Assembly (NCBI GenBank): GCA_027490225.1
Contig: JAIXYK010000027.1
Location: forward strand, 1 to 64,000
From: Bacteroidota bacterium
GTDB taxonomy: Bacteria; Bacteroidota; Bacteroidia; M30B66
Reading direction: 5' to 3'
DNA length: 64,000 nt
Shown: positions 46,640 to 53,832 of the stretch, one piece after another
Numbering within the stretch: position 1 is the stretch's first letter
How the letters are laid out: the number at the start of each line of letters is the position of its first letter
Translations under genes and position numbers: made by a program
Notes under the pieces: model-generated
What the model was told of the DNA's origin: nothing
Databases searched by the model: none
What the model saw: the letters and a program-made list of their open reading frames with translations, nothing else

Positions 46640-47923
46640 ATGAAAAAAGGTATTGTTGAACTATTCGTAAAATATTTCCCATATATTTTATTCATAACTT
46701 GTCTTATTGTATATTCTTTCATTGTTTTAGTTTTTCAAGATTTCCATTTGATTGGAGACGAGAATAGGTATATCAGACATGCTCAATGCATCGCAAAAGG
46801 AATATTTACTCCTCCAGATAATGATATGTGGCTTTGGAATGGACCAGGTTATCCACTTTTAATTTTACCAATTATACAGCTTTTCGACAATTATATAACA
46901 CCAATTAGATTACTCAATGTTATTTTATTGTCAGTTTCTTTAGTTGTATTTTATAAAACATTATTGAAAATAAATACTATTAGAACTTCAATAATAGCAA
47001 CAATTGCATTTGCATGTTATATATTAATTTGGAAAAGTTTGCCTTTAATTATGACTGAAATTGCAACAATATTTTTCTTAGTCTTGATACTTTTCTATGT
47101 TGTAGATAATAATAAATCATGGAAAAGGGTATTCTTATTAGCTTTTCTGCTATCTTTTCTTTGCATGATTAAAATTGTATTCGGATATATATTTTGTTTA
47201 ATGTGCTTGTTAATTTTGGGATATGAGTATTTTAATAAAAATAATGAAACGTTAAAATTTTTAAGAAAATCTCTTTTATTGTGCTTATTGTTTTGTACTC
47301 CTTGGTTAACGTATACTTATATTAAATCAGGAAAGATTTTTTACTGGGGGGCTTCTGGTGGTTTAAACTTATATTGGATGTCTAATCCTAGCCCTAATGA
47401 ATTAGGAGAATACATGGACTTTTCATTTGAGTCAGCGCTTGGCGTACCTAATGCTAAAATTGGATTTCAAAAAAGTCATGGAGAAGAAATTAATAGAATA
47501 ATCAATAATTTTAAATATGAAAAAAGAGATGATGAATTTAAAAGAGTTGCAATAAAAAATATAAAAGAACATCCAACAAGCTTCTTGAAAAATGTTTGGT
47601 GTAATATTGGGCGCTTCTTTTTTAATTATCCTTATTCTTATTATCCACAGCAGCCATCCACTTTAATAAATATATTAATTAATGGACCAATAGTTGGATT
47701 TATTATTTTTCTTTCTATTCATGCAATATTGTTCTTTAGGCGATATCCTATTTCAATTCAATTTACATTGGTAACTATTGCATTTTATTTATTTATCAAT
47801 TTTCCTTTGAGCTCGCTAATCAGAATGTTTTATGTAATAATTCCGTTTTTGTTTTTTTGGTTTGCGTTTGTTTTTGATAGAATCAATTTTAAACTGGAGC
47901 CCAAATTAAAGACCCTTAATTAA
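46640..47923 (+). CDS. GT39-like membrane glycosyltransferase (ArnT/PMT-type)
   Basis: This 427-residue multispanning protein has about ten hydrophobic helices. The first extracytoplasmic loop holds the acidic pair Asp40-Glu41 (HLIGDENRY), as in GT39/ArnT family enzymes that transfer sugars from polyprenyl phosphates. ATG 46640 is chosen because the longer ORF start at 46586 would overlap the preceding gene by 43 bases and add a charged 18-residue lead, whereas MKKGIVELFVKYFPYILF begins properly. Together with GtrA and the flavoenzyme it suggests decoration of a lipid, glycan or protein on the periplasmic face. Its last eight bases overlap the convergent next gene. Confidence 0.82.
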   Translation: MKKGIVELFVKYFPYILFITCLIVYSFIVLVFQDFHLIGDENRYIRHAQCIAKGIFTPPDNDMWLWNGPGYPLLILPIIQLFDNYITPIRLLNVILLSVSLVVFYKTLLKINTIRTSIIATIAFACYILIWKSLPLIMTEIATIFFLVLILFYVVDNNKSWKRVFLLAFLLSFLCMIKIVFGYIFCLMCLLILGYEYFNKNNETLKFLRKSLLLCLLFCTPWLTYTYIKSGKIFYWGASGGLNLYWMSNPSPNELGEYMDFSFESALGVPNAKIGFQKSHGEEINRIINNFKYEKRDDEFKRVAIKNIKEHPTSFLKNVWCNIGRFFFNYPYSYYPQQPSTLINILINGPIVGFIIFLSIHAILFFRRYPISIQFTLVTIAFYLFINFPLSSLIRMFYVIIPFLFFWFAFVFDRINFKLEPKLKTLN

Positions 47924-48593
47924 TATTTTCACTATAATTAATTTTATACATCAGCTCTTTTGCTTCACCATCATTAGGAGAAATTTCTAACCATTTATTT
48001 ACGAAAAGTAAAGCGCTGTCTTTTTTACCTAACGCTTCGTAAGTGATGCAAGCATTAATATAACCTAACCTGGCTTCAGGATACTTATCTCTAATTTGTT
48101 CAAGCGTAATTAATGATGCCCTGTAATTTGCAGTTTCATATTCACCCTGAGCTTTTTGCAACATTTTTTCTAGTTGCTGGTAATCGTACCATTTATAAGC
48201 AAATAAACTTATAACGATAGTAATTGTAAACAGGACGGATAACAAGGCTGGCTTCAATAAAGATTCAACCTGGTGCTCTTCATTTTCATCTAAATACCTT
48301 CTGTATAATGGATATTGAATGGCTGCAATGCTTATAGAAGTTATAATTACACCAATTGAAATTGCAGTGTCGAAATTCTCTGGAGCAAGCAAGAGAATGG
48401 CAATAAACAATATAAACAATGCAAACCCAATGATGTAAGTTGGTTTCTCAAGATTAGGCCTGCCAAGCTTTTTGTAATTTTTCCCTAATAAGATAAATCC
48501 GGGCAACAGTAAACAAAAGAAACTGATAACTCCAATGTAAAGCGGGCTCCAAACTTTTGAAGAAGGATTTTCTAATGGCTTTTCGTTTTTCAT
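47916..48593 (-). CDS. Membrane protein with C-terminal TPR-like region
   Basis: This 225-residue protein has four transmembrane helices (about 17-38, 49-70, 76-95 and 112-132), then a soluble C-terminal part with two TPR-like hairpins (YQQLEKMLQKAQGEYETANYRASLITLEQI, GYINACITYEALGKKDSALLFVNKWLEISPND). The family is not recognised. It is three bases downstream of the beta-propeller lipoprotein gene and so may be the last gene of the cobalamin operon, although its function need not be related. It converges with, and overlaps by eight bases, the GT39-like gene. Confidence 0.72.
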   Translation of the reverse strand: MKNEKPLENPSSKVWSPLYIGVISFFCLLLPGFILLGKNYKKLGRPNLEKPTYIIGFALFILFIAILLLAPENFDTAISIGVIITSISIAAIQYPLYRRYLDENEEHQVESLLKPALLSVLFTITIVISLFAYKWYDYQQLEKMLQKAQGEYETANYRASLITLEQIRDKYPEARLGYINACITYEALGKKDSALLFVNKWLEISPNDGEAKELMYKINYSENIN

Positions 48594-48596
48594 AAC

Positions 48597-49637
48597 TCAG
48601 TAAAAATAAAAACCGGAAGGTATAATCCCAACTGAATAATTTTTTTGTTCTACACCAGTTGAACTATACTGATATACTTTTCCATTTTGAACAAAATCTT
48701 TTGCATCGCTCACCCAAATGCTATTGTCTGATGGATGGATTCCCAAACCATAAAAAATTCGGCCATTTTCAGCAATAATTGGAGAAGTCCTCAATGCTGT
48801 TTCAGCGATATCTAATTTATAAACTCCTCCGTTTAGGTAATATAAATCATTGCCCGTTTTATCTATACGCAATCTTTTGGGATGATTAGTTGGTGATGGA
48901 AGTGTGAAATGTACAATTTCAGTGCTGTTTTGGGGATTAATTTTCCATATGCTTCCTGCTGTTTCATTGGGTGGTAAATTGCCCTCGCAAAGTGCCCAAA
49001 TATTGCCATTTTTATCTTTTATAATACTTGTCGGACTATCGCCCACTTGCACAGAATCTACTATTTGGTCGGTGGTTACGTTTATGGCGTACAATTTATT
49101 TCGCCTCACATTACACACCCAAGCCAATCCATTGCTAAGTATCATTTCTTCTGTCCAGCCCGAGCATGAAATTTCGCCTGTTTTGGAAGCATTCACTGGA
49201 TTTATTATATGAATTGCATTGGCGTGTAAATCACTCACATACACTTTGTTTTCGGCTACTTGCAAGGCATATCTTGGAGATGGTAAATTGTTAATTACAC
49301 CCAAAGAAGCAAATGTTTTATTGTTAATTCTTTCAATTTTTTGGGAATTGTTTACAATCATCCATAGCTCCTCTTTATATGGAAAAATTGACTGAAAAAC
49401 ATCACCCAAAGGCCTATTATTGGCTGTTGTAAAAACATCGTTTTCTACACTTGAATGTAAAGTTGAGATAGCACTTAAAGAAGCGTTTCCCCAATTAAAA
49501 GTGCCTTCATTAATAACCAAAGTTGTGTGTCCTGTTTCTGGTGGTGTTATTACACTCTTTTTTATTTCTTCCTTTTTACAAGAAGAAAAAAACAAAAGAT
49601 AAATTGCTAAAAAACGAATCAATGTGCTACAATGCAT
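48597..49637 (-). CDS. Beta-propeller surface lipoprotein, BtuG-like (DUF5074/YncE-like)
   Basis: This 346-residue protein has a lipoprotein signal (RFLAIYLLFFSSC, lipidated Cys20), then a chain of about 300 residues with repeated four-strand blades: VYVSDLHANAIHIINP, LAWVCNVRRNKLYAINVTTDQIVDSVQVG, IWALCEGN, IWVSDAKDF. This is a seven-bladed YncE/DUF5074-type beta-propeller. In Bacteroides, BtuG proteins of this fold are surface lipoproteins that bind cobalamin very tightly and hand it to BtuB. The riboswitch-BtuB context here supports that role, but ligand binding is inferred. ATG 49637 is used (MHCSTLIRF); the longer start adds 12 polar residues before the signal. It overlaps the upstream gene by 19 bases. 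Confidence 0.8.
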   Translation of the reverse strand: MHCSTLIRFLAIYLLFFSSCKKEEIKKSVITPPETGHTTLVINEGTFNWGNASLSAISTLHSSVENDVFTTANNRPLGDVFQSIFPYKEELWMIVNNSQKIERINNKTFASLGVINNLPSPRYALQVAENKVYVSDLHANAIHIINPVNASKTGEISCSGWTEEMILSNGLAWVCNVRRNKLYAINVTTDQIVDSVQVGDSPTSIIKDKNGNIWALCEGNLPPNETAGSIWKINPQNSTEIVHFTLPSPTNHPKRLRIDKTGNDLYYLNGGVYKLDIAETALRTSPIIAENGRIFYGLGIHPSDNSIWVSDAKDFVQNGKVYQYSSTGVEQKNYSVGIIPSGFYFY

Positions 49638-50602
49638 GGTATTATTGCTTTGTTGTTTTTCAGTTGGATGCACATATAATATGTTCCATTCTGCAAAGTT
49701 GAGGTATTTATTTGAAAACCTTGCTGGTTCTGCAACACGATTGCACCGGCTACTTTGCGGCCTGCAATACTTAGGAGTGTAAAGTTGATTATCTCATCTT
49801 GAATAACAACTTGCTGAAATACATCGGCTGGTTGCGGATAAACTTGATACTTTGAACAAGGAACTTCTTGCGTTGCAGCCGGGTCATTATGATGAATCAC
49901 GCCAACTGCATCTAAATCAAAACCACAACTGGGAAATGGAGTAGGCCATGGGTCCAATATTTTTCTCCCTCCAGCATCGCGCGAACAAAACTCATTTTGG
50001 TTACTTCCAACAACATCTACCAAACGAACATGCGTTATTGCATTTACATTTAATTCTGGAAATGAAGACAGCTCTTCCAGGTCGAAAGGTGTTCCGAAAC
50101 CTGCTTTATACTTCCCAGCTAGGTTGTTTAATTTAGTTGCTTCTAAATAATCAAAAGGACCAATTGTCCATGTTGTGTCGGTTAGCGATGTTGCTGGAAA
50201 GCGCACATAATTTTCACCATCTGAACTTACTTCAACAAAGGCCAATTCAAGAAAAATACCATCAAAGCTATTTTCAAAAACGGCAAAGTCGTAACCTGGT
50301 CCATTTTTTATTGAAAACGGAAAAGTAAGAATGGCTTGTCCACCATCACCTAAACTCACCAAACCATTGCTCAAAGCGGCGCCTGTGGCTAATTCAGGTT
50401 CTCCTGCACTTGCAACTCCTAATGAATCTGCACCCACTTGCAATGGTCCTCGAAAAATTTCAGCACCTGTTGCCCACGCTTTAAAAATGGTACTGTCTTT
50501 CCAAATAGCAGTAGAACCTGGCTCGCCCGCTGCAGGAGCAAATTGAGCGCTGCCAGTATTCCACAGTAAAAACAAAATTGAGAGTAATGAAAAACGCAAC
50601 AT
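49619..50602 (-). CDS. T9SS-sorted cell-surface protein of the cobalamin locus
   Basis: This 327-residue protein has a signal peptide (cleavage near GSAQ) and a beta-rich domain of about 215 residues. That domain has the blocks FAPAAGEPGSTAIWKDSTIF, LGDGGQAILTFPFSIKNGPGYDFAVFENSF, FLELAFVEVSSDGENYVRFPA, HVRLVDVVG and FDLDAVGVI. I recognise this as a Bacteroidota surface-protein family often found with cobalamin TonB receptors, from memory only. The last ~75 residues look like a T9SS sorting domain with a variant YPQPAD in place of YPNPA. Position between the DUF4465 and propeller genes supports a role in corrinoid capture at the surface. Its start directly abuts the stop of the DUF4465 gene. 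Confidence 0.75.
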   Translation of the reverse strand: MLRFSLLSILFLLWNTGSAQFAPAAGEPGSTAIWKDSTIFKAWATGAEIFRGPLQVGADSLGVASAGEPELATGAALSNGLVSLGDGGQAILTFPFSIKNGPGYDFAVFENSFDGIFLELAFVEVSSDGENYVRFPATSLTDTTWTIGPFDYLEATKLNNLAGKYKAGFGTPFDLEELSSFPELNVNAITHVRLVDVVGSNQNEFCSRDAGGRKILDPWPTPFPSCGFDLDAVGVIHHNDPAATQEVPCSKYQVYPQPADVFQQVVIQDEIINFTLLSIAGRKVAGAIVLQNQQGFQINTSTLQNGTYYMCIQLKNNKAIIPCIVAH

Positions 50603-51577
50603 TTATTTTGAAAGAATGAACTTATTGATGTAAATATTCTTTGGTGTTGTTAATCTCACAAAGTAAACACCATCTATTAAATTTTCAATGTTTATCTGCT
50701 TTGCTTCATTTATAGAAATATCAGAAATTACTACCCTTCCAGCTGCATCTATTATATCAAGTGTTCCATTTTTTTCTTTTGGTAAATCAATGGTAATTGC
50801 ACCAATGCTCGGATTGGGATAAACTATTATTGCTCCATCATCAACAAGTGAATTTACACTGTTAATATAGCTTTCATAGGAAATATTATCTATACAAAAC
50901 TGCAAGGGTGTATTAATTCCAAAACCTCCAACATCTGAAGAAGCAAATGAGTATACAACACTATCGAAAGTTGCAAGTGGGTTTAAGTTTATTTCTTCCC
51001 AATCTAATTGTATGTAATCTTGAGAGTTGTCTTCAAATCTAAAATCGGCCAGGTAATGCACTACAGAATCGGTGCTACTTGGAATTCCTGCTCTGTAGCC
51101 TTTAAAAACAACATAGAAATAATCGGGGTCGTTTCCTGTTTCTCCACCAAATTTCTTTGCGAATCCATCTCCATCGCGCATGCTGTTGTAAGCATAAGTT
51201 CCATTGCTAATAGAGAGATTCAACATGAATGTTGGAAATCCATTTGATACTGCAGATTTAAAATAACCGTTACCTAATGCAACTGCATAATTTGAGGAAT
51301 TGTTCGCACCTTTTCCTGCTTTGCTTGCATATAGATTTCCGTAACCAGAAGTTATTGAGTCTGTTACATTAGAATATGCAAAGCCTCCTTCCCAATAGGA
51401 GAATTCTGAATTGTAGTTTGTTGGAAAATACAAACCCCCACTCTCAAAACCCGTAGCAGTTAAATCTGCTCCGTCCCAAAACGTATCAGGGGCAAGTGTC
51501 AATTCTTCGAAAGTTGCTGTTTGAGTAGCTCCAATAAAATGGATTGAAAGAAGTAAAAAGGTGAAAAAGTATCTCAT
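50603..51577 (-). CDS. DUF4465 protein with T9SS sorting domain (cobalamin locus)
   Basis: This 324-residue protein has a signal peptide (cleavage near GATQ) and a DUF4465 domain (about 20-240: ATFEELTLAPDTFWDG, YWEGGFAYSNVTD, DPDYFYVVFKGYRAG, FCIDNISYES). A type A T9SS sorting domain with IVYPNPSIGAITIDL follows, ending NIYINKFILSK. In Bacteroides, DUF4465-type proteins are encoded in corrinoid-uptake loci as surface lipoproteins and have been linked to B12 binding. Here the lipid anchor is replaced by T9SS sorting. The gene lies three bases downstream of the BtuB-like receptor. Confidence 0.85.
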   Translation of the reverse strand: MRYFFTFLLLSIHFIGATQTATFEELTLAPDTFWDGADLTATGFESGGLYFPTNYNSEFSYWEGGFAYSNVTDSITSGYGNLYASKAGKGANNSSNYAVALGNGYFKSAVSNGFPTFMLNLSISNGTYAYNSMRDGDGFAKKFGGETGNDPDYFYVVFKGYRAGIPSSTDSVVHYLADFRFEDNSQDYIQLDWEEINLNPLATFDSVVYSFASSDVGGFGINTPLQFCIDNISYESYINSVNSLVDDGAIIVYPNPSIGAITIDLPKEKNGTLDIIDAAGRVVISDISINEAKQINIENLIDGVYFVRLTTPKNIYINKFILSK

Positions 51578-51580
51578 GGT

Positions 51581-53434
51581 TTATTTTTTTGAAATTGTAA
51601 TGCGCAATCCTGTTTGAAACCAGCGTAATGGCATCGCGCGCCAAGCAATTACCTGATAAGTAGTGTTGAAAATATTATTGATATTGATAAAGAAATTTCC
51701 CGAAAAAGCTTTGTGATGTAAAGCTTTAGAAAGCTGAATGTTTGATACAAAATACCCTGGCAATGAAGTTATATTATCTGTTGTAATAAAACTGCTGCCT
51801 GTATAATGTGTTTGAAATGAAGCATCAATGCCTTTCCATTCTATACCTATGGTTTGGTTTGCAGATAAATTGGGGCTGTAAATCAATTGCATTTTGTTCT
51901 TTTCTGTTTCGCAATATTGTGCTTGAATACTTGCAAATAATCGAACTTTACGCATGTTTTTACTCCAATTGAATTGTATAGAAACACCTTTGCTTATTAC
52001 ATTGTCGATATTATGAGGCGACCAGTAATTATTACCAGGAACCCATTGAATCCAATCCTGTATATCATTGTAAAATCCAGTGATAATAAATTGCATTTTC
52101 TTAAATTCAATTACTCCAGAAATTTCCGAGCAGATTCCAGATTCCGATTTTAAATTTTCATTTCCTCCAGGAATCCAGTACAAATCATTTAATGTTGGAA
52201 TTCTATAGGTTTTGGCAACCTGCCCTTTTACTTGAAGTGTATTATTTACAATGTATTTGAACGAAAATGAAGGTGCAAACCCCAACAGTTTCCCATTCAA
52301 TTGTTCTTGTCTTGCCGATGCTAAAACATTCAATTTATTCTGAAAAAATAAACTTCTAATCGAAGCAAAAATTGCAGTTCGGGCTTGCGCATGCTGATGT
52401 CCAGCAAACCCATCTGCGCTTGCAAATATTCTTGTATCATTCAAGCCTATTTGAAATGTTGTTTGTTTTAAACGGTATGAAAAATCGGCATCTTGAATAT
52501 AAGTTTTGGAGCGATTGGTTGAGTGAATATTTGAAATTGAATCGTTGTATAAAATCGTTTCATCAAAAAAGCCACTCTTCATTTGAATTAAGAACCTTTC
52601 TGCCTCATATTTCCATTGGGCAGTAATTCTCAAGATATCGTCTTGTTGGGCCGCATTCGATGTTGGAACTGTCATTATTGGAGGAAGTTCCCTGTTCGAT
52701 TTTTGATACCAAGTGGCAATTTTAATTGATTGTTTTTTGCTTGGAAGAATATTCAATTCCTGCATCAATCCTCCAAATTTTACTTCGGCATTCAGTTGCT
52801 TCCTCACGGGACTTCCAAACTCAGTTGTATTTTGAAAGTTGAATCTATTACTTGATTGATATTGGAAAGCCTTAACGCTCAATGACCATAATTTCCTTGA
52901 AACACCTGCGCTAATTGCTGTCCTTTGCTGGTTCCAACTTCCCAACATTTGTTCAACCGAAACATGGTTTTCAATTTTTGAGGGTTGTAAAAAAATAGTT
53001 GCTCCGATGGCGCCGCTTCCCCAATTAGCAGCGTTGGCGCCTTCTTGAAGAGAAATTGATCCAAATAAAAATCCAGGTATCAGATTCAAATCTAATTGAC
53101 CATTCATGCCATTTTGTAGATTAAACCCATTCCATACAGTTGCGGTATGCGCTGCCCCTGTTCCTCTAAAACCAGGCGAAGCCAATGCTCCCGGGCTATA
53201 TTGTTTAATAAATCCTGCAGAGTTTCTTTGTAAAATATCAGAAGCTGTTAAAATAGATTGTTGAGGTTTTGATAAATCAATTTGGATGATTTGTAAACCT
53301 GGCTGAGTTTCCGGAATTCTATTGCTTTGAATTTCTATTTCTTTTATCAATAAAGTAGTATCTAAAAGCTGTTGCGCTTTTACATTTACCGACCAAATCA
53401 GTAAAAAAAACAGATATTTAATTTTGCACCTCAT
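51581..53434 (-). CDS. btuB: TonB-dependent cobalamin (BtuB-like) receptor
   Basis: This 617-residue outer-membrane receptor has a signal peptide (cleavage near VKAQ). A TonB-box-like segment and plug domain (about 35-160) contain TASDILQRNSAGFIKQYSPGALASPGFRGTGAAHTATVWNG and the LQEGANAANWGSGAIGATIFL end. About 450 residues of beta-barrel follow, ending in GLRITISKK. There is no carboxypeptidase-like N-terminal extension, so it resembles classical BtuB/FepA-size receptors rather than SusC. The upstream cobalamin riboswitch makes B12 or another corrinoid the likely ligand, and three surface-protein genes follow in the same operon. The symbol btuB is used in this functional sense. Confidence 0.88.
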   Translation of the reverse strand: MRCKIKYLFFLLIWSVNVKAQQLLDTTLLIKEIEIQSNRIPETQPGLQIIQIDLSKPQQSILTASDILQRNSAGFIKQYSPGALASPGFRGTGAAHTATVWNGFNLQNGMNGQLDLNLIPGFLFGSISLQEGANAANWGSGAIGATIFLQPSKIENHVSVEQMLGSWNQQRTAISAGVSRKLWSLSVKAFQYQSSNRFNFQNTTEFGSPVRKQLNAEVKFGGLMQELNILPSKKQSIKIATWYQKSNRELPPIMTVPTSNAAQQDDILRITAQWKYEAERFLIQMKSGFFDETILYNDSISNIHSTNRSKTYIQDADFSYRLKQTTFQIGLNDTRIFASADGFAGHQHAQARTAIFASIRSLFFQNKLNVLASARQEQLNGKLLGFAPSFSFKYIVNNTLQVKGQVAKTYRIPTLNDLYWIPGGNENLKSESGICSEISGVIEFKKMQFIITGFYNDIQDWIQWVPGNNYWSPHNIDNVISKGVSIQFNWSKNMRKVRLFASIQAQYCETEKNKMQLIYSPNLSANQTIGIEWKGIDASFQTHYTGSSFITTDNITSLPGYFVSNIQLSKALHHKAFSGNFFININNIFNTTYQVIAWRAMPLRWFQTGLRITISKK

Positions 53435-53532
53435 TTTCTGTGTGGTACATTCTTAAAAAAAGTAAAAAATAGGAAATGCTCCTTCAACAAGTGACGAGCT
53501 TTGAAAACCTATTCTCTGCCTTTCTTCCCGAA

Positions 53533-53718
53533 AGCACCGAATTAATATGCAGCTGGCAGGTCTTCTGACTCGCTCTAACTTAACACCTTCCCATCTTTAC
53601 AGACAGTGGTTTTTTTGTTAAGTCTCTTTTAAGAGCTCACAGCAGCGGGAACTGTCTCGGATTCGCACCGAATTCCCTTTTAATTGTAGTTGTAAAGGCT
53701 ACAAACCAAATGCGGTGC
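53533..53718 (-). promoter_or_regulatory. Cobalamin (B12) riboswitch
   Basis: Read on the minus strand, the leader contains the conserved cobalamin aptamer elements in order: GGGAATTCGGTGCGAATCCG, GACAGTTCCCGCTGCTGTGA, CCACTG, GGGAAGG, and the B12 box AGTCAGAAGACCTGCC. GCACCG at the 5' end (53713-53718 region) can pair with CGGTGC at 53533-53538 as the closing P1 stem. It lies 98 bases upstream of the BtuB-like receptor. Binding of adenosyl- or other cobalamin should lower expression of the whole downstream operon. The remaining bases of the 53435-53859 gap show no gene. Confidence 0.95.
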
Positions 53719-53832
53719 AAACTTAAACAAATTATTTGTGATTCATCAACTTAACAATTTTAAATGGTTTGTTAAAAATTGATTATTTGACCTTTTTACC
53801 CGAAAATCATAAAATATGTAACGCAATCTCCT

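Follow-up and report, generated by a model that had tools for sequence, protein, structure and literature searches.

A cobalamin-riboswitch operon of Bacteroidota in which candidate B12-capture proteins carry type IX sorting domains beside a lipoprotein BtuG

The window (the whole stretch of 64,000 nucleotides from a Bacteroidota bacterium that was analysed here) carries on its minus strand, to which all window coordinates below refer, a cobalamin riboswitch and five co-oriented open reading frames, which encode in this order a BtuB-like receptor, a DUF4465 protein, a protein of 327 residues (hereafter P327), a BtuG-like protein and a TM-TPR protein. Riboswitches were called with covariance models, and the aptamer at 53538-53725 matched the cobalamin family RF00174 with 109 bits (E = 2.2e-26; curated threshold 31.5 bits) over the full-length model (model positions 1-189), as the single RF00174 match of the host genome. 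The sequence-only reading followed up in this study had placed a full riboswitch at 53533-53718; it is indeed full-length, and its boundaries were off by a few bases. A weak candidate for the expression platform, a long hairpin (AAUAGG...CCUAUU) with a U-rich stretch behind it, was noted at 53468-53513; the leader fold gave z = -2.61, with 5 of 200 shuffled sequences folding equally well, and a consensus terminator scan of the leader did not flag this hairpin. The first open reading frame starts 103 nt downstream of the riboswitch, the spacings along the operon are 3 nt, 0 nt, an overlap and 3 nt, in good agreement with the proposed five-gene operon with gaps of three bases or less, and the gene beyond the operon end is convergent with it. 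This arrangement is not due to chance, since dozens of genomes share both the gene set and the anchors. The host genome also encodes SprA, the translocon of the type IX secretion system (T9SS; 2554 bits), and the B12-dependent methionine synthase MetH.

The product of the first gene (51581-53434; 617 residues) is a TonB-dependent receptor with both PF00593 and PF07715 domains. Its PDB matches at E <= 1e-10 were exclusively BtuB proteins, the best being the B. theta proteins BtuB3 (8p98/8p97, E = 2e-42), BtuB2 (8bmx, 2e-38) and BtuB1 (8blw, 1.5e-13), while its score is far under the cut-off of the E. coli-type BtuB equivalog. The fourth gene (48597-49637) encodes a seven-bladed propeller of the DUF5074 family (PF16819, 84.7 bits), for which the best PDB matches were BtuG structures (BtuG3 8p97_B, E = 1.6e-51). 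The longest reading frame of this gene begins at GTG 49673 (358 residues), and the in-frame ATG at 49637 (346 residues) is the likelier start since it results in a normal signal peptide. The N-terminus thus obtained, LLFFSS^CKKEE, is a lipobox, as the sequence-only reading had seen, and its C-K-K-E-E fits the motif C-X-K-(D/E)2-X that directs surface-lipoprotein export in Capnocytophaga (PMC5080379).

The second gene (50603-51577; 324 residues) encodes a DUF4465 protein of BtuJ type (PF14717, 137 bits, cut-off 25), the only DUF4465 gene in the host genome. This B12-capture candidate is close to the solved B12-binding members (9hmu, E = 4e-16; 9qpm, 4e-13; BtuJ1 9fct, 1e-12), and it ends with a type A T9SS sorting domain at residues 252-321 (50615-50824), which was recognized by both TIGR04183 (49.1 bits, cut-off 23) and PF18962 (48.7 bits, cut-off 27). 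DUF4465 proteins bind B12 across phyla, Fluviicola among them, and binding has been described for those of six further bacteria, the HI-loop tyrosine being kept in 97% of the homologues (PMC13398666). The HI-loop of the window protein, NTPLQF (50897-50914), carries Gln at this Tyr/Phe site; Tyr or Phe was found in 39 of the 41 motifs of the surveyed loci, and Gln in the window copy only. Both the domain and the tail of the T9SS-sorted corrinoid-capture component proposed earlier were thus found, the conserved aromatic residue of the B12 pocket being absent, and the B12 affinity of this particular copy may be reduced. The survey of the DUF4465 family published in 2026 described its members as lipoproteins or as proteins with periplasmic-targeting signals, T9SS being unmentioned (PMC13398666); in contrast, T9SS tails were carried by 39 of the 41 DUF4465 neighbours surveyed here.

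The third gene (49619-50602) encodes P327, of which residues 254-319 (49646-49843) form a second type A sorting domain, starting with the variant motif YPQP that had been pointed out before. Its scores, 27.8 bits for TIGR04183 (cut-off 23) and 27.4 bits for PF18962 (cut-off 27, barely passed), are above the curated thresholds. Both the DUF4465 protein and P327 thus have the properties of type A T9SS cargo, i.e. a signal peptide, a C-terminal Ig-like sorting domain scoring above cut-off and an SprA-bearing genome, in support of the proposal that the surface-capture proteins of this operon are partly T9SS cargo; unlike known cargo of this type, they would constitute a nutrient-capture module.

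The recurrence of this organization was examined with a sample composed of the P327 loci of 149 related genomes and 80 named loci drawn from the genomes of GTDB species, the latter set being biased to close relatives of the window P327. Strong homologues of P327 (E < 1e-50) were found in 46 of the 149 genomes, and removal of duplicates left 118 distinct P327 loci for the whole sample. A total of 77 loci were linked to btuB (70 loci), btuG (68) or the DUF4465 gene (46), so that the co-occurrence proposed by the sequence-only reading was found and an absence of these families from other loci was not. Within the 149 genomes, P327 was present in 33 of the 38 genomes with DUF4465 and in 13 of the 111 others (Fisher p = 2e-17, relatedness of the genomes being ignored). 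With a local HMM, the T9SS tail was detected on 114 of the 118 P327 proteins, and the independent check with NCBIfam detected it in 38 of 44; a lipobox was recognized with a purpose-made pattern in 60 of the 68 BtuG proteins of these loci. Five loci (L043, L093, L104, L120 and L129) encode DUF4465-P327 fusions, and the DUF4465 proteins are long or doubled in three others (L072, L074 and L137). The mixed anchoring of T9SS cargo alongside a lipoprotein BtuG, which had been taken for the solution of one lineage, is supported by these signals and is widespread, and not peculiar to the lineage of the window.

Other capture proteins with T9SS tails were also found. A T9SS-tailed protein of 420-450 residues is the product of the first gene in many operons with a cobalamin riboswitch, and in 17 aligned operons (L044, L049, L050, L055, L096, L117, L130, L139, L142, L145, L147, L149, L152, L153, L156 and L159 are such loci, and also L234, L235 and L241). 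Since the profile of this protein matches BtuG propellers (3dsm, E = 4e-5; 8blw, 1e-4), it seems to be a BtuG-like protein with T9SS sorting in most of the 17 operons; one sequence (L090) aligns badly and may be a different protein. The operons with this opener mostly retain a separate lipoprotein BtuG adjoining BtuB. In other Bacteroidota, proteins with a canonical BtuH domain carry T9SS tails rather than lipoprotein anchors (L164, L170, L184, L187 and L190). As judged from these sorting signals, swaps between lipoprotein and T9SS anchors are recurrent among B12-capture proteins.

Apart from the tail, P327 gave no family match in Pfam, a search of the PDB with the single sequence using phmmer gave nothing useful, and weak matches to the Leptospira lipoprotein family LIC_13355 were noted for 18 of 44 P327 proteins. 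The Foldseek search with full-length P327 included no BtuH among the 50 matches listed; because the Ig-like tail made two-domain beta matches dominate this search, the P327 domain was modelled alone with AF2 from an alignment of 44 sequences. The model is confident (pLDDT 91, pTM 0.91), and when it was compared with 350,542 PDB chains the top three matches were BtuH2 (7biz, two chains) and BtuG1/BtuGH (8blw), with E values from 1.3e-4 to 2.1e-3 and TM scores of about 0.48. Sequence profiles gave the same direction: the best non-tail match of the P327 profile in the PDB was the BtuH domain of 8blw (E = 0.001 and 0.006), the best matches of P327 in two B12-riboswitch-rich genomes were BtuG-BtuH fusion proteins, and profile-profile comparison with 29 BtuH domains scored 55.9, while none of 60 column-shuffled controls exceeded 24.2. 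The two share the predicted fold, the strand motif SLGxGG...DFxVxxNxF and an Asn which in BtuH2 (Asn399) contacts the phosphate/nucleotide loop of B12 (PMC8941943). The numbering of BtuH2 Asn399 holds, because the chain sequence has the expected residue at each of the positions His476, Tyr510, Trp511 and Trp577. The corresponding residue of P327, Asn111 (codon at 50270-50272), is Asn in 44 of 44 aligned P327 proteins and in 28 of 29 BtuH domains.

The relationship with BtuH is, however, not the closest one of P327. The family of the window harbors many T9SS proteins per genome with tandem repeats similar to P327 and BtuH (motif SLGFGG...VFETSF...ADGYDVDGV; loci L193 [G000:C45:74500-81000], L194, L195 and L205-L225), apparently outside B12 loci. 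P327 matches this generic surface repeat with E = 4e-18 and BtuH with E = 1e-7, whereas BtuH is about equidistant from both. The view that P327 is a BtuH orthologue was rejected on this comparison, and the function of P327 is not transferable by homology alone, because the generic repeat is nearer than BtuH. Of the 44 generic repeats that are readable at the site of Asn111, 42 carry Thr or Ser and none carries Asn. On this alignment evidence P327 and BtuH belong to a single superfamily of surface domains, as separate branches that have the ligand-contacting Asn in common, so that the claim of a hitherto undescribed 327-residue family stands as to its absence from Pfam but not as to its fold and key Asn, which place it in the BtuH superfamily. 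The match remains remote and local (35 columns), the contacts by His476, Tyr510, Trp511 and Trp577 cannot be mapped on P327, and P327 differs from BtuH in having no PKD or propeller partner domain; P327 would most likely bind corrinoid through its BtuH-superfamily beta-sandwich.

Of the 118 P327 loci, 41 are without a btuB, btuG or DUF4465 neighbour. For 39 of these stand-alone loci, in which the upstream sequence was long enough for the test, a cobalamin or AdoCbl riboswitch above the gathering score was identified just upstream and on the same strand in 20, while one more (L057) has a sub-threshold riboswitch of 42 bits with a DUF6580 gene between it and P327, and none was detected for the other 18. 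Since most relatives carry one or two cobalamin riboswitches per genome, the association for 20 of 39 genes is far beyond chance; the B12 link is therefore strong, though not universal, as indicated by the 18 genes without a riboswitch. At one P327 locus (L060, G121:C77), the P327 gene follows a cobalamin riboswitch and lies directly upstream of cobT, cobS and a phosphoglycerate-mutase-like cobC, as identified by eye.

The operon resembles the cobamide uptake loci of B. theta (PMC8941943, PMC10404256, PMC12751083), in which a riboswitch, BtuB, a BtuG lipoprotein, a DUF4465 protein and a BtuH-fold protein are likewise combined in one operon. It differs in that all the surface binders of B. theta are lipoproteins while the DUF4465 and BtuH-fold proteins here are T9SS cargo, that P327 forms a branch separate from BtuH, and that btuFCD is missing from the operon, a FecCD permease not being found in the genome either. 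The P327-bearing operon is probably an outer-membrane system for corrinoid scavenging under repression by B12. The mechanism that we propose builds on the gene order, the riboswitch, the sorting signals, the T9SS translocon and the recurrence in many genomes, all of which were observed. When B12 is scarce, the riboswitch would let transcription proceed into btuB-btuJ-P327-btuG. BtuG would be lipidated, flipped to the surface and seated as a lid on BtuB, while the DUF4465 protein and P327 would cross the outer membrane via T9SS, lose their tails, and then be fixed to surface LPS or released. Both proteins would bind corrinoid at a distance from BtuB and then deliver it to BtuG/BtuB. The transporter-docked lid would thus be a lipoprotein and the free capture proteins T9SS cargo, a rule which fits the finding in B. 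theta that BtuG, unlike BtuH, is stably associated with BtuB (PMC10404256). The mixed-anchor capture complex proposed by the sequence-only reading is, as a physical assembly, a putative one. Beyond the observed features, we infer the repression by B12, the binding of B12 by P327, the choice between anchoring and release, and the hand-over; taken together, the mechanism of T9SS-displayed or released DUF4465 protein and P327, a lipoprotein BtuG lid and a B12-repressed operon appears probable.

As to the fate of the exported proteins, T9SS cargo is known both to be anchored to LPS and to be freely released (PMC10202324), and the tails do not discriminate between the two fates. The T9SS-sorted proteins could then be released instead of being displayed, and serve as diffusible carriers of B12, comparable to the vesicle-borne BtuJ of B. 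theta (PMC12751083). Release in a dilute environment would, however, benefit the neighbours, and we regard exclusive release as rather unlikely. About as unlikely is that P327 does not bind corrinoid but serves at the surface in structure or docking, or binds another ligand, and is co-regulated with B12 uptake. The greater closeness of its domain to the generic repeats, many per genome and apparently outside B12 loci, is in line with such a role, as are the 18 stand-alone genes without a detected riboswitch; against it count the riboswitch in front of the 20 other testable stand-alone genes, the five proteins in which P327 is fused to the DUF4465 domain that binds B12, and the BtuH2-type phosphate-contacting Asn, invariant in P327 but Thr or Ser in most generic repeats. 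That the sorting domains are inert remnants, the proteins being periplasmic or lipid-anchored through misread N-termini, might be suggested by the weak and variant tail of the window P327 and by the four P327 proteins without a detectable tail, but it is very improbable in view of the retention of tails on 114 of 118 P327 and 39 of 41 DUF4465 proteins across divergent genomes, the presence of SprA, and the signal-peptide-like N-termini without lipobox of both window proteins.

Capture at the surface followed by BtuB transport leaves the step at the inner membrane. We found no BtuC-type FecCD permease in the host genome but weak matches only, which were rejected as BtuC because by eye they resemble permeases of the ABC-3 metal type, next to an ABC ATPase; FecCD is also absent from 88 of the 131 riboswitch-bearing relatives. 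The last gene of the operon (47916-48593; 225 residues), which had been counted as a part of the capture machinery, encodes a membrane-type protein with a hydrophobic N-terminal half and a TPR-like C-terminus (TPR matches below cut-off). Only in the family of the window (f1) was it found, immediately downstream of btuG, so that neither its assignment as a general part of the system nor a general role in inner-membrane import could be retained. Replacement of BtuCD by this protein was set aside, as genomes without it are also without FecCD, and DUF6580 fits better. This small membrane protein (PF20221) was found in 99 of 149 Bacteroidia genomes and FecCD in 46, with both in only 4 and neither in 8, a near-perfect complementarity with p = 3e-24, in which independence is overstated since the genomes are related. 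In 16 genomes the DUF6580 gene lies within 6 kb downstream of a riboswitch, and its neighbours in the loci fetched include the genes for a TonB receptor, a periplasmic binding protein, DUF71, CobU and CobT. Copies were noted at L057 (8488-9057, minus strand), at L234-L251 and, outside the operon, in the host genome (G000:C57:22843-23364). No relative of DUF6580, BtuM included, was found in the PDB, and no report on it was found among the open-access papers searched. From its distribution and gene neighbourhood, DUF6580 is a strong candidate for the inner-membrane B12 importer in place of the BtuC-type permeases.

BtuB, BtuG, BtuH and BtuJ are already known from Bacteroides. The arrangement of mixed lipoprotein and T9SS B12-capture proteins in dozens of non-gut Bacteroidota seems undescribed; among the open-access papers searched, no report of T9SS-sorted B12-capture proteins was found. 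In the most inclusive reading, P327 would be a family of its own that binds corrinoid and was recruited from a generic surface repeat of T9SS proteins, environmental Bacteroidota would display or release a T9SS B12-capture layer composed of BtuJ-type proteins, P327 and a second BtuG-like protein, only the BtuB-docked BtuG would be lipid-anchored, and DUF6580 would replace BtuCD; the conjunction of all these parts is possible, though its chance is somewhat less than even.

The picture of B12 capture in Bacteroidota has been built largely on gut Bacteroides, of which the binders are lipoproteins. The survey presented here indicates that many environmental Bacteroidota use type IX secretion to export the greater part of the capture set, and suggests the rule that the docked lid is a lipoprotein while the free binders are T9SS cargo. 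It also exposes a missing step at the inner membrane, for which DUF6580 is the strong candidate. If this is true, one unnamed but widespread B12-linked family, P327, would be added, and T9SS would serve as a route of vitamin acquisition, besides the export of enzymes and adhesins.
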